NCBI RefSeq assembly: GCF_019565455.1
Contig: NZ_CP067377.1
Coordinates: 2,858,001 to 2,922,000 of the forward strand
Source: Flavobacterium oreochromis
GTDB lineage: Bacteria > Bacteroidota > Bacteroidia > Flavobacteriales > Flavobacteriaceae
Reading direction: 5' to 3'
Length of the DNA stretch: 64,000 nucleotides
The translations under genes were made by a program, and so were the position numbers. Under the pieces are notes generated by a model, which ran no database searches, was not told the origin of the DNA, and was given only the letters and a program-made list of their open reading frames with translations. This document shows positions 20,591-63,164 of the stretch, piece by piece; position 1 is the first letter of the stretch, and each line of letters begins with the position of its first letter.

Positions 20591-21258
20591 ATGCAATCTT
20601 TATTTCAGGATGAAAAATATTTAGAATATTTAGAAACATTTATAACAGAAAATAGAAAGGAAGGCTTTAAGAAGATTTTAGCAAATAGAACTAAACATTT
20701 TACTGTAGTTTGTGAAGACGTTTATCAATTACATAATACCAGTGCTGTTATGAGAAGTTGTGAAGTTTTTGGTATTCAAGAATTAAATGTTGTAGAACAA
20801 CGTTTTGGAAAAAGAATTGATAAAGAAATTGCCCTTGGAGCAGAAAAATGGGTAGATATCAAGCGTTTTTCTAATAATCAAGATTGTATGAATGATTTGA
20901 GAGCAAGAGGATATCAAATTATAGCAACTACCCCACATGAAAAAGATAATGTCTTAGAAGATTTTGATATATCTAAACCATCAGCAATTTATTTTGGTAC
21001 AGAAAGAGTAGGAATTTCAGAAGAAGTTATAAAAAGGCAGATGGATTTTTGAAAATTCCAATGGTTGGATTTACAGAAAGTTTAAATATATCTGTATCAG
21101 CTGCTATTATTATACAAAGTTTAACAAATCGATTACGTCATTCTAATCTACAATGGCATTTATCAGATGCTGAGTTTTTAGAAAAAAGGATAGATTGGGC
21201 TCGTAAATCAATTAAAGATATTGATTTTATAACTCAAAAATATTTAGAGCAAGTCTAA
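20591..21258 (+). CDS. SpoU/TrmH-type tRNA 2'-O-methyltransferase, frame broken
   Basis: Two frames give one SPOUT methyltransferase of about 223 residues. The first contains VCEDVYQLHNTSAVMRSCEVFG (motif 1 with the Asn and Arg) and IYFGTERVGISEEV (motif 2). The second contains KIPMVGFTESLNISVSAAIII (motif 3). A five-A run at 21031-21035 breaks the frame; six would restore IKKADGFLKIPMVG. The sequence best fits TrmH, which methylates G18 of tRNA, but other SpoU targets cannot be excluded. The C-terminal helix WARKSIKDIDFITQKYLEQ follows. Confidence 0.82.
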
Positions 21259-21438
21259 ATTAAAAACCTTTTTAGAAGTTAAATAAAAAACAAAAAGTTA
21301 AAATATTTTTTTAAACAAAGTCTGTTATACATATAATAATATTAATTATTCCTAGTAAAAGATTAAGATAAAAGTACTTGAAAAGTCGTTTTTTATGTTT
21401 TTAAAATGACTTTTTAGTACAGGATAAAAAAATTGAAT

Positions 21439-53068: not shown

Positions 53069-53127
53069 ATCTTTAATTATTTAATTTAGAATAAAACTAA
53101 AACAAGCCATGATGTACTTTTAAAAAA

Positions 53128-54053
53128 TTAATCTAAATTGTTTACATCTTGATCTGTATCGCTATAAAAAAGTTTACAAAAATAACCAAGTCTATATAAA
53201 TCAAATATATGCAAAGATGGTTTTTTAGAAATTAAAATTTTAATTAAGATTTTATGATACAGAAGATGTAAATTGTATAGTAAATAATCCAGCTTTAAAT
53301 AACTCAATTGTAAGTATAATTTAGAAATTGAAGTATCTTCATAGGAAATAATTTTTTGTTCAATTAAAAATTTTAAATTTTTAAGAGAAGAATGATGCTT
53401 TTTGATAAACAAGATAGAATTATCAATTCCCAAATGGTAAACAGGATTTTCAATATGATTAATTTTATAACCATGATCTTTACAGTTTTTTATAAAGACC
53501 AAATCTTCAAATCCGTATTCTCTAATGGTTTCATTAAATGAAATGAAATTAAAAAGAGCTCTTTTAATCATTAAATTAGACGTTAATGTGTGTTTATAAG
53601 GTCTTTTTAATCTAATTTTTAAATCTGTCTCTTCTCTTTTTTACCAAATAACCATCGTAGTCTTTTATTATAATCAGGAGGAGTATTTGTATATTTTATA
53701 CCTCCGTATATTATCATATAATTATTTTTGTTTAATTCTTTGATATAATTTTTAATAAAATTAGAGTTACTTGGAAAAGTGTCTGCATCTAAAAATAGAA
53801 GAGTTTCATATTTTGCAATTTTTGCTAATCTATTTCGAATAGCACTTCGTCCTATGTTTTGTTCTAAATTTATATATTGAACAGTAGGTATATCTTTTAA
53901 TTTATTATTTTCTAAAAGTATTTGATTATTATTAGAAGCATCATCTATAACAATTATTTCATACCTAACAGTACAATAATTACACTGATTAATTAATTCA
54001 AGAACTAAATTAACAATATTATAATTGTATGTTGGGATTAAAATTGATATCAT
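53128..54053 (-). CDS. family 2 glycosyltransferase, frame broken
   Basis: The first frame gives ISILIPTYNYNIVNLVLEL, YEIIVIDDASNNNQILLENN, NIGRSAIRNRLAKIAKYETL and LFLDADTFPSNSNFI. The second gives LMIKRALFNFISFNETIREY then GFEDLVFIKNCKDHGY with the ED motif. The break is a six-T run on the plus strand at 53637-53642; seven would give KKREETDLKIRLKRPYKHT. The repaired protein is about 308 residues. It is the most upstream gene of the minus-strand glycosyltransferase series, and its specificity is unknown. Confidence 0.8.
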
Positions 54054-54886: not shown

Positions 54887-54910
54887 AAGAAAAGTTAGAA
54901 ATTATGAGAG

Positions 54911-54958
54911 CAAAAATACAAAGCAATTTTAAATTCTGCTGTTGAATTGTTATTTTTG
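54911..54958. promoter_or_regulatory. divergent rlmH and pyrD promoters
   Basis: CAAAAATA at 54911-54918 is a minus-strand TATTTTTG (-7 for rlmH). TATTTTTG at 54951-54958 is the plus-strand -7 for pyrD, 21 bp before its ATG. Both match TAnnTTTG. Confidence 0.55.
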
Positions 54959-54979
54959 CACCACAACACAACAAATTAT

Positions 54980-56022
54980 ATGTATAAACAACTTATTCGT
55001 CCGTTACTTTTTAAATTTGATCCAGAAGAAGTACATTATTTTACTTTTAGTACAATTCGTTTATTAAATAAAATACCAGGAATTTCTTTTTAATAAAAAA
55101 GAAGTTTCAAATACAAGATAAGCGTTTAGAAAGAGAAGTTTTTGGATTAAAATTTAAGAATCCTGTAGGACTTGCAGCTGGTTTTGATAAAGATGCTAAA
55201 TTATTTAACGAATTATCTGATTTCGGATTTGGCTTTATAGAAATAGGTACATTAACACCTAAAGCACAAGAAGGAAATCCTAAAAAAAGATTATTCCGAT
55301 TGTTAGAAGATTCGGCTATTATTAATCGTATGGGATTCAACAATGGAGGGGTAGAAGCTGCTGTTCATCGTTTAAAGAAAAATAAAGGAGTACTTATAGG
55401 AGGTAATATTGGAAAAAATAAAATTACGCCTAATGAAAATGCGGTAGATGATTACAAAATATGTTTTGAAGCACTATATGATTATGTAGATTATTTTGTA
55501 GTAAATGTAAGCTCTCCTAATACACCTGGTTTACGTGAATTACAAGATAAAGAACCTTTAACAAATTTGTTAAAATCACTTCAAGAACTTAATTTTAAAA
55601 AATATGTAGGAGTAGAAGGTATGCAAGGTGAAGTAAAACCTATTTTATTAAAAATTGCACCTGATTTAACAAATGAGCAATTATTAGATATTATTGATAT
55701 AGTGAAAGATTCCAAAATTGCAGGAGTTATAGCTACTAATACTACAATTTCAAGAGATGGATTGCAATCAGTAAATAAAAATGAAATAGGAGGCCTTTCA
55801 GGAAAACCTTTAACAGAACGATCTACAGAAGTAATCCGTTTTTTATCAGAAAAAAGTAATAAAGCATTTCCTATCATTGGAGTAGGAGGTATTCATACCG
55901 TAAAGGATGCAATTGATAAGTTAAATGCAGGAGCTAGCTTAGTGCAATTATATACAGGCTTTATATACGAAGGACCTGCTTTAATTAAAGGAATTAATAA
56001 AAAAATATTAGAACAAGCCTAA
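54980..56022 (+). CDS. pyrD: dihydroorotate dehydrogenase (quinone type), frame broken
   Basis: The repaired protein of about 347 residues is a class 2 PyrD. It has an N-terminal membrane helix region ([20 protein letters not shown]), then [49 protein letters not shown] with the catalytic Ser (class 2), [25 protein letters not shown] and [21 protein letters not shown] five-T run at 55087-55091 breaks the frame after ISF; six gives [19 protein letters not shown]. It oxidises dihydroorotate to orotate in pyrimidine synthesis, reducing quinone. HMG-CoA lyase follows 18 bp later. Confidence 0.93.
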
Positions 56023-56910: not shown

Positions 56911-56938
56911 TTTAGATCATAAATTTATTTAAAAATAA

Positions 56939-56981
56939 TCTAAATAAACTTTGTTTTATTTAGAATCAGTCTTTATATTTG
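56939..56981 (+). promoter_or_regulatory. promoter and putative metal-regulator operator of the iron operon
   Basis: TTTG at 56950-56953 and TATATTTG at 56974-56981 are 20 bp apart, a full match to Bacteroidota -33/-7 elements. An inverted repeat, TCTAAATAAA-N6-TTTATTTAGA (56939-56964), is centred on the -33. Further copies of the half-site occur at 56910-56917 (AATTTAGA) and 57003-57011 (TCTAAATAA). The clustering suggests a Fur- or DtxR-type operator. The regulator identity is inference. Confidence 0.65.
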
Positions 56982-57020
56982 TAGTCTCTTATTTTTAAAT
57001 GATCTAAATAAAATATTAAA

Positions 57021-58218
57021 ATGAACTTCAATAAATTACTATTAGCCTCTTTACCCGTATTTTCTTTAGTAGTTACGTCATGTTCTCAGAACGAGCAAGT
57101 TATAACAGATACTACATCATATGTTACGCCAGCTACTTATACTTTTAATCGTAATGGTGTTACTACAATTGATCTTAGTGGTCAAAAGTCTAGAATTTTA
57201 ATGCTTCAGGAAATTGCAGATTATGTAAAAAATCAAGGAGCTAATGGACTTGCGGTAGATAATGCCAAGTTGTTAAATATGTATGAAAATACAAATTCAC
57301 CATTTGTAAATGCAGAACTTAATACAACTGTTACAAAACAATTAAAAGATAAAACAGCTGCTTCATTAGATTATTTTTCAACAAACAGTCCAGAGCAAGC
57401 TGCTGAAAGAATGTTTTTTGAAGACCAATTAAGAGCAATAGGAAATGCTGGTACTGGAGTAGCAGCTAATGGAGTGGCAGGTATTTTTGAAAAAAGATAT
57501 TATTCTGCTAACGGATTAGAGCCTGTTCAAGTTGTTCTTAAAGGTTTGATGGGGGGCTTGTTTTATTGATCAAATTTGTAATCATTATTTAAGTGTAAAA
57601 AAATTAGATGCAGGTACAAATAAACAAGACAATACAGTTAAAAAACTTAAAACAGGTACAAACTATACTGAAATGGAACATTCATGGGATGAAGCTTATG
57701 GCTATATTTACGGAGCTGGTCGTGATGCGGATGGTAAGAATGCTAAGTTTTGGGATAGTTATATAGATCAGGTAAATGCAGATAAAGATTTTAATACTAT
57801 AAAAGCAGATATAAATTTAGCTTTCAGAACAGGTAGAGCAGCCATCGTAAATAATGATTATGCTACTCGTGATGCTCAAATAGCTATAATTAAAGAAAAA
57901 TTAGCAAAAGTAGCAGCTGTACGTGCGGTGTATTATCTAATGGAAGGTAAGAAAAATTTAGCAGGAGGGGCAGCAAAAACTTTTCACGGATTATCAGAAG
58001 CTTATGGTTTTATTAAATGTTTAAGATATAGTAATAAACAAGCAAGTAATAGCCCTTATTTTTCTAAAGTAGAAGTAGAAGCAATGCTTAAAACTTTATT
58101 AGCTGGTAAAAATGGTTTTTGGGATACTGATTATTCAAAAAATAATTTAGAAATATTAGCAAAAAACATTGCGGATAGATTTGGTTTTACAGTAGCACAA
58201 GCACAAACAGTTGATTAG
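57021..58218 (+). CDS. DUF4856 domain lipoprotein, frame broken
   Basis: The lipoprotein signal MNFNKLLLASLPVFSLVVTSCS has lipobox VTSC. The body has the DUF4856 features YTFNRNGVTTIDLSGQKSRI, FEKRYYSANGLEPVQVVLKG, MEHSWDEAYGYIYGAGRDAD and YLMEGKKNLAGGAAKTFHGL. A six-G run at 57551-57556 contains one extra base; removal gives LMGACFIDQICNHYLSVKKL. The repaired length is about 399. Its neighbours are imelysin, HTTM and a FecA-like receptor, and DUF4856 is structurally imelysin-like, so a role in iron capture at the outer membrane is plausible but unproven. Confidence 0.82.
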
Positions 58219-58245
58219 TAGAATATATAAATAATAAACTAAATT

Positions 58246-58286
58246 ATAACCAAGTATTAATAAATATTAGTACTTGGTTATATTTG
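58246..58286 (+). promoter_or_regulatory. hairpin and -7 motif between DUF4856 and imelysin genes
   Basis: ATAACCAAGTA at 58246-58256 is perfectly inverted at 58271-58281 (TACTTGGTTAT). TATATTTG (58279-58286) overlaps the right arm and is 16 bp before the imelysin ATG. It could be an operator on an internal promoter or a processing or attenuation hairpin. Confidence 0.5.
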
Positions 58287-58302
58287 CATTTATAAAGAAA
58301 TT

Positions 58303-59415
58303 ATGAAAAAGATATTTTTTGCGCTTTTTTTATCCTTACTGATAAGTTGTTCAGATGATAAAAAAATTGATGAGCCTCAAATTACTATAGGTGATAATTA
58401 TGATAGAAAAGCCATGCTTACGAATTGGGCCGAAAACATTATTATTCCTGCTTATAAAAATTATCAAATAGAGGTTAATAAACTTTATGAAGACGCAAAT
58501 GTTTTTAAACAAAACCCTACAATTGATAATTTAAATAAAATCAGAACTTCTTGGCTTAATTCTTATAAGTCTTACCAGCATGTTGCTATGTTTAAGATAG
58601 GAAAAGCAGAGGATCTATATTTTATTAGCCATACTAATACATATCCTATTAATAGTATTGAAATTAATAAAAATATAAATCTACAAGGATATAATCTTAC
58701 TTCATTAACACAATTTGATAGACAAGGATATCCCGCTCTTGATTATATGCTTTACGGTTTAGCTGATACAGATCATTCTATTTTAATCTTTTATACAGGT
58801 CCAGATGCTCAAAAATATACAACCTACTTGACAGATCTAGTGACTGATTTAAAAAATACAGCAGATACACTATTAAATGATTGGAATACATATAAAAATA
58901 CATATATATCCAATACAAACAACACTACTTCAGGTTCTGTAAATTTAACTGTAAATGCCTATATAGAATATTTTGAAAAACATATTCGATTAGGAAAAGT
59001 AGGTTATCCAGCGGGTAAATTTTCCAATGGCATTCAACCAAATAAAGTAGAAGCATACTTTAAGAAAGATATCTCTAAAATCTTATTAAATGAAGCTGTG
59101 CAAGCAAGTGCTGATTTCTTTAATGGGAAATATTTTTCTAGTGATCAAACAGGTCCCTCATTAAAAAGTTATTTAGATCATCTGAATGTGCAAAGAAATA
59201 ATAAATTATTAAGTACTATTATTAATGATCAGTTTTCTTCAATACAAGTAAAAAACAATGCTCTAGATAATAATTTTGTGAATCAAATAAATACAAATAA
59301 TAACAAGATGTTAGAATCTTATGATGCTATGCAACTTAATGTATCTTATTTTAAGATAGATATGTTGACAGCCCTTAATATTGCAGTAGGTTATGTTGAT
59401 TCAGATGGGGATTAA
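58303..59415 (+). CDS. imelysin family lipoprotein
   Basis: This 370-residue protein has lipobox LISC (MKKIFFALFLSLLISCSDD) and imelysin-like repeats. Landmarks are ILTNWAENIIIPAYKNYQIE-like helices (actual start MLTNWAENIIIPAYKNYQ), IRTSWLNSYKSYQHVAMFKI, FDRQGYPALDYMLYGLAD matching the GxPAxxYLLxG motif, and GKVGYPAGKFSNGIQ. Imelysins (IrpA/EfeO-like) are iron-regulated surface or periplasmic iron-handling proteins. Its last codons overlap the HTTM start, which points to coupled expression. Confidence 0.87.
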   Translation: MKKIFFALFLSLLISCSDDKKIDEPQITIGDNYDRKAMLTNWAENIIIPAYKNYQIEVNKLYEDANVFKQNPTIDNLNKIRTSWLNSYKSYQHVAMFKIGKAEDLYFISHTNTYPINSIEINKNINLQGYNLTSLTQFDRQGYPALDYMLYGLADTDHSILIFYTGPDAQKYTTYLTDLVTDLKNTADTLLNDWNTYKNTYISNTNNTTSGSVNLTVNAYIEYFEKHIRLGKVGYPAGKFSNGIQPNKVEAYFKKDISKILLNEAVQASADFFNGKYFSSDQTGPSLKSYLDHLNVQRNNKLLSTIINDQFSSIQVKNNALDNNFVNQINTNNNKMLESYDAMQLNVSYFKIDMLTALNIAVGYVDSDGD

Positions 59416-60760
59416 TATTAAATCATATTTTAAAAAAACATCATTTTCCGAAACGCTAGCTTTTTACAGGATAGCGTTTGGTTTTATGATGCTTTTTAGT
59501 ATTATTCGTTTTTGGAGTTATGGATGGATAGAAAAATTATACATAACCCCAAAATATCATTTTACCTATTTTGGTTTTGAATGGATTAAACCCTTAGGAA
59601 TTTATACTTATCTGATTTTTTTTATTTGTGGACTATCAGCCTTTTTTGTCGCTTTAGGATATCGTTATAAAATAGCAGCTATATCCTTCTTTCTTAGTTT
59701 TACTTATATAGAATTAATGGATAAAACAACATATTTAAACCATTATTACTTCATATCTATAATTAGTTTTATTCTGATTTTCCTTCCTGTAAATTGTAAT
59801 TATTCTCTTGACGTATACTTAGATAAATTTAAATTACGGTCACACGTCTCACAATGGAATATTGATATTCTAAAATTAATGTTAGGAATAGTCTATTTTT
59901 ATGCAGGATTAATAAAATTAAATTCAGACTGGTTATTAGAAGCACAACCTTTAAAAACATGGCTTCCTATGAATTCAGGTTTGCCAATTATAGGAACTTT
60001 ATTACTTAAAAGTTGGGTGCATTATGGTATGAGTTGGGCAGGTGCTATTTACGATCTATCTATACCCTTTTTGTTACTCAATAAAAGAACTAGAATAATA
60101 GGATTTATATTAGTAGTAGTATTTCATATTTTTACAAAAATATTATTTCCCATAGGAGTTTTTCCTTATGTAATGATCATAAGTACTTTAATTTATTTTT
60201 CTCAAAATTTCCATAAAAAAATACTTCAAAAAACAATTGAAATATTACATATTCCTCGTTCTCGATTTGAAACAACATCTTATTCTAAAGCTACTACATC
60301 AAAATTTTCAGTGATTTTTTTGAGTCTTTTTATGTTGTTTCAATTAATTTTTCCTTTTAGATATTTGTTATATCCTCAAGAATTATTTTGGACAGAAGAA
60401 GGTTTTCGTTTTTCTTGGCGTGTAATGCTAATGGAAAAGGCAGGATATACACAATTTAAAATTGTAGATCAAACGGGAAAAGTAGCATTAGTAGATAATC
60501 ACAATTTTTTAACACCCTTTCAAGAAAAACAAATGTCATTTCAACCGGATTTTATATTAGAATATGCACATATTCTAAAAAAATACTACCAAGATAATGG
60601 ATTTGTAAACCCTAAAATATACGTAGAAAGTTTTGTAGCTCTTAATGGAAGATTGAGTCAACCTTATATAGATCCTACAGTAGATTTAGGATCAGAAAAT
60701 GAATCGTTCAAACATAAAACATGGATTTTACCATTTAAAGATGAAATTAAAGGATTTTAA
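59405..60760 (+). CDS. HTTM (vitamin K-dependent carboxylase-like) membrane protein
   Basis: From the ATG at 59405 the product has about 451 residues. It has at least seven hydrophobic segments in the first 300 (YRIAFGFMMLFSIIRFWSYG, IYTYLIFFICGLSAFFVALG, YFISIISFILIFLPVNC, KLMLGIVYFYAGLIKLNSDW, FILVVVFHIFTKILFPIG, then VIFLSLFMLFQLIFPFRYLL). These are the HTTM architecture of gamma-carboxylase homologues. A soluble C-terminus follows (FRFSWRVMLMEKAGYTQFKI). It overlaps both the imelysin gene upstream and the receptor gene downstream. Biochemistry in this setting is unknown. An earlier ATG at 59393 is possible. Confidence 0.83.
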   Translation: MGINIKSYFKKTSFSETLAFYRIAFGFMMLFSIIRFWSYGWIEKLYITPKYHFTYFGFEWIKPLGIYTYLIFFICGLSAFFVALGYRYKIAAISFFLSFTYIELMDKTTYLNHYYFISIISFILIFLPVNCNYSLDVYLDKFKLRSHVSQWNIDILKLMLGIVYFYAGLIKLNSDWLLEAQPLKTWLPMNSGLPIIGTLLLKSWVHYGMSWAGAIYDLSIPFLLLNKRTRIIGFILVVVFHIFTKILFPIGVFPYVMIISTLIYFSQNFHKKILQKTIEILHIPRSRFETTSYSKATTSKFSVIFLSLFMLFQLIFPFRYLLYPQELFWTEEGFRFSWRVMLMEKAGYTQFKIVDQTGKVALVDNHNFLTPFQEKQMSFQPDFILEYAHILKKYYQDNGFVNPKIYVESFVALNGRLSQPYIDPTVDLGSENESFKHKTWILPFKDEIKGF

Positions 60761-63164
60761 AATTATAGTACTATTATTACTAGTAACTAAAATGTTTTCG
60801 CAAAATACCATAATTGGAAAAGTTGTTTTTAATGGAGTGGGAGTTTCACAAGTTGAAATTTTAGATAAAAATTTAGGTTTAAACTATCTTTCTGATCTAA
60901 ATGGAAATTTTATAATAAAAAATAATAATCCAACAAACTTAGTTTTTTATAAAGAAGGTTACGAAATCATAGAAAAAAAATTAGTACCATCAGCACAGTT
61001 ACAGATTATAGAAATAGAACAATTAAAAAGATTATCGGAGGTAAAAATAGTTAGTCAACGTCAAAAAATAAGTGCTATTAGAACCTTAAAGGATGTTGAA
61101 GAAACCGCTATATATGCTGGAAAAAAAACAGAAGTAGTCGTACTAAATAATTTAACTGCTAATAAAGCAGTGAATAATGCGCGCCAAATTTTTTCACAAG
61201 TTGTAGGTATTACTATGAATGAAAGTATTGATGGTGGTTTACAACTTTCAATAGGAGGCCGTGGTTTAGACCCTAATCGAACAGCTAACTTTAATACACG
61301 TCAGAATGATTATGATATTAGTGCAGATGTTTTAGGTTATCCAGAAAGTTATTATGCTACTCCTACAGAGGCAATAGAAGAAATTCAAGTTATTAGAGGA
61401 GCTGCATCCCTTCAATATGGTACACAATTTGGAGGAATGATAAACTTTAAAATTAAAAAACCAACAGCTAAACCTCTAGAAGCTATTTCTCGTTTTACAG
61501 CCGGTTCTTTTAATACATATGCTAATTTTACTAGCTTAAGTGGAACAAAAGATAAATGGAGTTATTATACATTTTATAATTATAAAAAAGGAGATGGATT
61601 TAGACCAAATTCAAATTTTGAATCAAAAAATTATTTCGGTAATTTAAATTATAAGTTATCTGATAGAACGTCATTGCATTTAGATTATACACATTTTAAT
61701 TATTTAGCTAAACAGCCTGGAGGTCTTACAAATGGAATGTTTGCTAATGATCCTTTTCAAAGTAATAGATCCCGTAACTGGTTTTCTGTAAATTGGAATC
61801 TATTTGCTTTACGATTAAAACACAAATTTCATAATGATGCTGATTTTTCATTACAATTATTCGGATTAGACGCATATAGAAAAGCATTAGGATACCGTTC
61901 TAATAGAGTTTCTAATCCAGATACCCCTAATACTGAAAGAGACTTAATCATAGGAGAGTTTAAAAATTGGGGAGTTGAGGCACGATATTTAAATAAATAT
62001 ACCTTATGGAATAAACGTAATGCTTTTTTAATAGGAGCTAAATATTATCAATCTAAAAATTCAGGCGTACAAGGTCCTGGAAGTTCTACTTCAGATGCAG
62101 ATTTTGCTATTGCTGATGAACAATTTCCATATTATCAAAATCAATCATCTTATAGTTATCCAAATTTAAATATCTCATTATTTGGTGAAAATATTTTTAA
62201 ATTAACCGATCATTTTTCAATTACACCAGGTTTTAGATATGAATATATTAAAACTCAAGCCGTAGGTTTTTTTAGAGTAATTAATAGAGATTTAGCGGGA
62301 AATATAAATATTGATAAAACAGAATTTGAAGATAGAGTTTTTGAAAGAAAATTTGCACTACTCGGCTTAGGATTTAGTTATAAACCCAAACTTGGTGTAG
62401 AATTATATGCTAATGTAACACAAAATTATCGCTCAGTAACTTTTAATGACATAAGAACAGCCAGCCCAAGTATAGTAGTAGCAGATGATATAACAGATGA
62501 AAAAGGATATGGCTCAGATATAGGAATTCGAGGAAAAATAGGAAATATACTAAGTTATGATATTAACGGATTTGGTTTATTATATGACAATAAAATTGGT
62601 GAATATAGTGCTCGTGATCCAAAAGGGTTAAAGCCAGATGTACGCTTACGCGATAATATAGGAACAGGTATGACTTATGGTCTTGAATCATTAGTTAATA
62701 TCAATCTTTTAAAAATGATTTTACCTGATAACTTAAATTTTAAAATAGATGGATTTTCAAACATATCTATTACAAAATCTAAATACATAAAATCTGATAT
62801 TCCTAATATAAAAGGGAATCATGTTGAATTTGTTCCTTTATATAACCTTAAATCAGGAGTAACCTTAGGGTATAAAAATCTATTAATTAGCACACAATAT
62901 ACTTACGTATCATCACAGTTTACAGATGCTTCTAATAGAGTTTCTGATCAAAATGATTTATCAGGTATATTTGGAGGAATTCCTTCGTATAATGTACTAG
63001 ATTTATCTGCTTCATATAAATTCAATCGTTTTAAATTAGAAGCGAGTGTTAACAACTTGACAAATAATAAATATTTTACTAAAAGAGCAACAGGATATCC
63101 AGGACCAGGTATTATTCCCTCAGAACCTCGAGTATATTATTTAACTTTAGAAGTTAAGTTATAA
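60741..63164 (+). CDS. TonB-dependent receptor, FecA-like
   Basis: From the ATG at 60741 the protein has 807 residues, with signal peptide MKLKDFKIIVLLLLVTKMFS and a short CarboxypepD_reg-like domain (IIGKVVFNGVGVSQVEILDK). The plug contains QIFSQVVGITMNESIDGGLQ, IGGRGLDPNRTANFNTRQ, YYATPTEAIEEIQVIRGAAS and LQYGTQFGGMINFKIKK. A 22-strand-type barrel ends in RVYYLTLEVKL. The plug wording is close to ferric-citrate-type receptors. It imports a ferric complex or other metal chelate using TonB. It starts within the HTTM 3' end (20-bp overlap). Confidence 0.9.
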   Translation: MKLKDFKIIVLLLLVTKMFSQNTIIGKVVFNGVGVSQVEILDKNLGLNYLSDLNGNFIIKNNNPTNLVFYKEGYEIIEKKLVPSAQLQIIEIEQLKRLSEVKIVSQRQKISAIRTLKDVEETAIYAGKKTEVVVLNNLTANKAVNNARQIFSQVVGITMNESIDGGLQLSIGGRGLDPNRTANFNTRQNDYDISADVLGYPESYYATPTEAIEEIQVIRGAASLQYGTQFGGMINFKIKKPTAKPLEAISRFTAGSFNTYANFTSLSGTKDKWSYYTFYNYKKGDGFRPNSNFESKNYFGNLNYKLSDRTSLHLDYTHFNYLAKQPGGLTNGMFANDPFQSNRSRNWFSVNWNLFALRLKHKFHNDADFSLQLFGLDAYRKALGYRSNRVSNPDTPNTERDLIIGEFKNWGVEARYLNKYTLWNKRNAFLIGAKYYQSKNSGVQGPGSSTSDADFAIADEQFPYYQNQSSYSYPNLNISLFGENIFKLTDHFSITPGFRYEYIKTQAVGFFRVINRDLAGNINIDKTEFEDRVFERKFALLGLGFSYKPKLGVELYANVTQNYRSVTFNDIRTASPSIVVADDITDEKGYGSDIGIRGKIGNILSYDINGFGLLYDNKIGEYSARDPKGLKPDVRLRDNIGTGMTYGLESLVNINLLKMILPDNLNFKIDGFSNISITKSKYIKSDIPNIKGNHVEFVPLYNLKSGVTLGYKNLLISTQYTYVSSQFTDASNRVSDQNDLSGIFGGIPSYNVLDLSASYKFNRFKLEASVNNLTNNKYFTKRATGYPGPGIIPSEPRVYYLTLEVKL

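Follow-up and report, generated by a model that had tools for sequence, protein, structure and literature searches.

The 64,000-nucleotide window analysed here is part of the 3.54 Mb single-contig genome of Flavobacterium oreochromis (contig NZ_CP067377.1, positions 2,858,001 to 2,922,000), and at 57021-63164 on its plus strand lies an imelysin/TonB-receptor operon that includes an enzyme of the human GGCX type, called VKC below. The initial annotation had placed four genes here, and all four were recovered at the same place and on the same strand:

57021..57569, plus strand: DUF4856 lipoprotein, N-terminal half (PF16148, 1.5e-35)
57673..58218, plus strand: DUF4856, C-terminal half, in another frame (PF16148, 9.1e-76)
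58303..59415, plus strand: imelysin-like lipoprotein, IPPA type (PF09375, 2e-20)
59405..60760, plus strand: GGCX-type membrane enzyme, VKC (HTTM and VKGC lumenal domains; longest frame from 59393)
60741..63164, plus strand: FecA-fold TonB-dependent receptor (PF00593, PF07715; longest frame from 60699)

The overlaps reported earlier also hold once translation is taken from the internal ATGs at 59405 and 60741: 11 bp between the imelysin and VKC genes and 20 bp between the VKC and receptor genes. The genome carries a single locus each for HTTM, imelysin and DUF4856. DUF4856 is not one open frame in the window, the break lying inside 57529-57563, and intact copies are present in relatives. About 2 kb upstream, pyrD (dihydroorotate dehydrogenase, 54908-56022) also appears to be split between two frames, around 55072-55093. 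Since both genes are apparently frame-split, we suspect the sequence itself, and the break in DUF4856 is probably a sequencing or assembly error.

VKC had been described as an HTTM protein. That domain is present (PF05090, 248 bits), but the description was incomplete, as the VKGC lumenal domain is there too (PF22777, 200.7 bits). Because both domains were found, VKC is a full relative of the vitamin K-dependent gamma-glutamyl carboxylase. In agreement with this, a phmmer search against solved structures brought up 8 distinct sequences with E values of 1e-3 or lower. Each of them bears the name vitamin K-dependent gamma-carboxylase, and the top hit reaches 2.6e-42 across residues 20-448; from the residue numbering, the 8 are taken as human GGCX.

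The gene order is strongly conserved. Our Flavobacteriaceae sample comprised 299 genomes, at least 231 of which contain PF22777, and from the matches listed we took 91 loci with high scores and 29 with lower ones, flanked by about 8 kb where the contig allowed. Counting the window as well, imelysin, VKC and receptor follow one another in the same order and on the same strand in 94 loci; DUF4856 is also present in 92 of the 94, and the remaining 2 (L036, L123) stop at a contig edge. Of the lower-scoring loci, 27 showed no linkage, and the other 2, L127 and L133, proved to be copies of the operon. In the surroundings of 93 operon copies, no further family recurred often enough to pass our 12% limit. 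DUF4856 itself occurs in 100 of the 299 genomes; among the matches listed, an operon-type VKC accompanies it in 94 of these 100 (the copy in G235 is cut by the contig end) and is absent from 6, and a single genome (G272) has VKC with no DUF4856 match. Across 150 genomes of the genus, VKC scored at least 193 bits in 26 and DUF4856 was found in 20, all within the 26 (Fisher 6e-20 for the co-occurrence), a count that rests on score alone and includes at least 2 genomes (G900, G1002) in which DUF4856 does not adjoin VKC. In a phylum-wide draw, PF22777 was present in 82 of 395 genomes, and 31 of the 40 loci fetched showed the imelysin-VKC-receptor arrangement (23 with a DUF4856 match) while 9 were unlinked; the 31 represent 15 families beyond Flavobacteriaceae, and two further loci bring this to 17. 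Among named records, all four genes lay on one strand in 70 of 80 loci, these being the top 80 among 570 confirmed relatives, biased to operon-type VKC and tested for strand, not order; the closest VKC proteins in this set are from Flavobacterium (64-66%). The initial annotation had stated that a lack of conserved linkage in related genomes would count against it; linkage was instead found in all three collections (92/94, 31/40 and 70/80 loci).

There are exceptions. VKC is missing from five related DUF4856-imelysin-receptor operons: in L155 and L160 the imelysin gene is followed directly by the receptor gene, and in L158 and L162 the VKC slot holds a 93-amino-acid hydrophobic frame. In the fifth (L156:5749-6699), the slot holds a PF04116 FA_hydroxylase, possibly a functional replacement or possibly there by chance; we take this family to be an oxygen-dependent membrane enzyme type as well. 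Conversely, four Flavobacterium records keep imelysin-VKC-receptor with no adjoining DUF4856, two Roseivirga records (2 of the 80 named loci) keep the DUF4856-VKC pair with neither imelysin nor receptor, and at L181 VKC stands on its own with no partner genes. VKC is thus a very regular member of the operon, not an obligatory one. As a separate observation, the Flavobacterium operons without DUF4856 (L213, L223, L234, L253) have a divergent second imelysin-like gene adjoining (64-72 bits).

We aligned 203 operon-linked VKC copies with 39 others and GGCX, and read the columns against the residue roles given for GGCX (PMC12589487, in its available part). Numbered from 59393, K175 of the window VKC corresponds to human K218 and H117 to human H160. 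Nine positions are unchanged in 203/203 linked copies: N159, H160, K218, W223, G259, F286, F294, F299 and M402. These cover the catalytic base (K218), the Glu pocket (N159/H160) and residues around the quinone ring; at the Y395 position, 148 copies have Y and 55 have F. Elsewhere M401 is replaced by V in 203/203 copies and N290 by T in 202/203, and the match stops at residue 505 of the 758 in GGCX. In a tree that took in 62 of the 203 linked copies, all 62 grouped together in a 66-tip clade with a support of 0.89; its four other tips are L209, which lies at a contig edge, L181, and the two Roseivirga pairs, L235 and L263. Taken together, the chemistry of VKC looks intact and its substrate docking different, and we lean towards VKC having live GGCX-type quinone chemistry. 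Of additional note, Flavobacteriaceae also have a second GGCX-type paralogue, which is not in the window's genome. It retains the catalytic K218 and H160, adjoins ribF in 27/27 loci and serS in 26/27 (L126, L128-L132, L134-L154), and is linked to the operon partners in 0/27.

Upstream of DUF4856 lie a promoter and three Fur-box-like sites:

56950..56981, plus strand: promoter, with -33 TTTG (56950-56953) and -7 TATATTTG (56974-56981), spotted by eye
56927..56945, strand unspecified: Fur-box-like site 1 (16/19)
56958..56976, strand unspecified: Fur-box-like site 2 (15/19), between -33 and -7
56991..57009, strand unspecified: Fur-box-like site 3 (14/19)

The -33 and -7 elements, 20 bp apart, were assigned by the Bacteroidota promoter consensus. 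Both are present where the initial annotation had seen a promoter overlaid by half-sites, and the half-sites prove to be parts of the three 19-mers. These were scored against the Fur box printed in the results of PMC5609570; the abstract of that paper prints a different sequence. Over the whole window, 19-mers of at least 14/19 are found 41 times vs about 34 expected from a first-order model, whereas the 83 bp promoter stretch holds three vs about 0.04 expected. The decamer TTTATTTAGA occurs 3 times in the window vs 2.1 expected and is not rarer than chance, and all 3 occurrences are at the operon promoter. In relatives, the best match upstream of DUF4856 reaches at least 16/19 in 77 of 90 regions vs 2 of 900 shuffles. 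Other 16/19 sites in the window, at 21242-21260 and 53084-53102, adjoin open reading frames without an obvious iron role and may be there by chance.

A published expression table supports the link to iron. In Riemerella anatipestifer, RAYM_09779-09794 are listed consecutively as a TonB-dependent receptor, a vitamin K-dependent gamma-carboxylase, an imelysin and a hypothetical protein (PMC5609570, Table 4), a correspondence that we base on annotation and consecutive locus tags. According to that table, the four genes rise under iron restriction in the wild type (low/high iron ratios 2.11-3.07) and in the fur mutant (mutant/wild type at high iron 1.36-1.93), the threshold of the study being set on log2 ratios. 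Within the available text of PMC5609570 the carboxylase goes undiscussed ("vitamin" and "gamma-carboxylase" appear once each). The suggestion that the operon responds to iron, against which the absence of a response had been named as evidence, thus finds published support in similarly annotated genes; the published response does persist without Fur. The iron operon label is supported by the conserved order, the Fur-box-like sites, the FecA-fold receptor and the Riemerella table, and the four genes are very probably an iron-responsive uptake module.

The window imelysin scores 74 bits against the Pfam imelysin profile (cut-off 23.5), and its family profile matches the imelysin-type protein IPPA of P. 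arcticus (3pf0) through the last residue, so the two are of the same type. Where the GxHxxE motif is expected it has GYPALD; in our collection GxPxxD occurs in 180 of 208 copies and GxHxxE in 5. For GxxxxE forms, a possible loss or change of function was suggested by Xu et al. (PMC3143127, available part). We also considered the C-terminal DGD of the imelysin as a signal for VKC and rejected it: 205 of 208 copies end in DGD, and because the five VKC-less copies and Psychrobacter IPPA are among them, the tail marks the imelysin type. A simple lipobox pattern was found in 168 of 192 DUF4856 proteins and in 156 of 208 imelysins. The idea that DUF4856 is a second imelysin gained no support from profile comparison, in which hhalign aligned the signal peptide only, and no solved relative of DUF4856 was found. 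The receptor family profile aligns with E. coli FecA over both plug and barrel (3e-42), FecA being its only solved relative at 1e-20 or better. The likeness is in the fold; the receptor scores 75.5 against the FecA equivalog cut-off of 1100, and 2 of 8 citrate ligands, both arginines, are retained. All 8 letters of these presumed ligand positions fit one offset. Ferric citrate is therefore a doubtful ligand, judged from these residues. The same missing ligands and the scarcity of the canonical GxHxxE motif would also fit an operon that imports another metal complex or an organic ligand, with iron merely as its regulator. Set against the Fur-box-like sites and the FecA-fold receptor, we consider this quite unlikely.

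Based on these findings, we propose a mechanism for the operon. At the level of sequence, the operon, its gene order, the Fur-box-like sites and the intact active site are established, and we suggest an uptake operon, self-contained and repressed by iron, in which the GGCX-type enzyme modifies the exported proteins of the operon using menaquinol, a scheme about which we are evenly divided. Under iron-replete conditions, Fur would occupy the promoter; iron shortage would bring joint expression of all four genes. The DUF4856 and IPPA-type imelysin lipoproteins would be exported and would capture iron or an iron complex, and the FecA-fold TonB-dependent receptor would import the captured iron, its presumed cargo. 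VKC would sit in the inner membrane with its active site facing the periplasm, using oxygen and, presumably, menaquinol. In the least certain step, it would add carboxyl groups to acidic residues in proteins that the operon exports, the lipoproteins being the simplest candidates, and thereby generate ligands for metal. The modifying role first imagined for an HTTM protein has gained plausibility from the invariant GGCX active site.

Several observations weigh against this scheme. When VKC-bearing operons were compared with the five VKC-less ones, no conserved Glu column in DUF4856, imelysin or receptor separated the two sets, and the very existence of those five operons shows that the partners can occur without VKC. 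The densest 45-residue stretch has a median of 6 Glu in DUF4856, 6 in imelysin and 7 in the receptor, vs 6 in a background of 403 open reading frames, so that no Glu-rich stretch of the Gla-domain kind stands out. In the enzyme itself, positions assigned to GLA-backbone contact or domain coupling are replaced (N158 by L in 203/203, R436 by Q in 190/203 and K217 by A in 199/203), and VKOR has 0 matches in the window's genome, being found in 44 of the 299 genomes of the family. The DUF1111/DHOR peroxidase of the imelysin systems of Xu et al. likewise has no match in this genome. As for regulation, the iron response of the Riemerella genes remains in the fur mutant (2.70-3.07), and in the available part of PMC5609570 the operon is in neither the Fur-box table nor the electrophoretic mobility shift assay set. 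Carboxylation of the operon's own proteins by VKC is accordingly a tentative proposal, which we hold to be possible but somewhat doubtful.

Two alternatives draw on the same observations. VKC may carry out GGCX-like quinone chemistry without protein carboxylation, either oxidizing menaquinol (as an epoxidase, or in oxygen or redox handling) or modifying a small molecule or lipid that aids iron capture. In its favour, the Glu-backbone contacts are altered although neither the base nor the quinone pocket varies, and the partner proteins lack a Glu signature; a Leptospira GGCX homologue was reportedly proposed, by Rishavy in 2005, to do something other than carboxylation. Yet N159 and H160 of the Glu pocket do not vary, the Y395 position holds Y or F in 203/203 copies, and VKC is tightly linked to two exported lipoproteins, down to the DUF4856-VKC pairs of Roseivirga, so that we find this alternative unlikely. 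The other possibility is that VKC handles iron directly, for example as a periplasmic quinol-dependent ferric reductase replacing the peroxidase of other imelysin systems. Imelysins are nearly always accompanied by a DHOR peroxidase (Xu et al., PMC3143127, available part), and in this genome, which lacks one, VKC sits in the enzyme slot. The fully retained GGCX Glu pocket and the five operons without VKC speak against such a role, no redox metal motif was noticed, in an analysis that made no search aimed at one, and we regard a ferric reductase as very unlikely. Returning to the carboxylation scheme in its broadest form, VKC, as a menaquinol-dependent carboxylase, might equip lipoproteins that capture iron with metal-binding residues; bacterial protein carboxylation would then be an uptake strategy under iron control and widespread in Bacteroidota, an idea that we put forward cautiously and rate as somewhat improbable.

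The module resembles several known systems in part. VKC shares with human GGCX the HTTM and VKGC lumenal domains, the catalytic base, the Glu-pocket Asn and His and the quinone-ring residues, but residues past about 505 are unmatched and N158, K217, M401, N290 and R436 are replaced. Fur-regulated imelysin operons such as PA4370-PA4373 (PMC3143127, available part) have a DUF1111 peroxidase, whereas the window's operon combines its imelysin with DUF4856, VKC and a FecA-fold receptor. The legend of the imelysin-context figure of Xu et al. names FP1487, and the word "carboxylase" is not in the available text of that paper. The Leptospira glutamyl carboxylase is likewise a bacterial GGCX homologue (PMC4555120, available part). 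For a Leptospira VKG beside the imelysin LruB, the accessible parts of two papers name imelysins with a thiol peroxidase and contain the word "carboxylase" nowhere. In the literature covered, with most subscription journals outside its scope, we found no description of an imelysin/TonB-receptor/GGCX-type module beyond the Riemerella table and no established role for bacterial GGCX relatives. Gene order across many families and the Fur-box-like sites now tie one clade of these relatives to one process and three partners, and the question of what bacterial GGCX relatives do becomes directly testable with named candidate substrates. Should carboxylation be shown, it would be a new route to iron ligands; otherwise, another use of GGCX chemistry would come to light in this operon.

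Further upstream in the window, a glycosyltransferase-2 gene at 53128-54053 may consist of two minus-strand frames, with a Pfam match in the first piece only.

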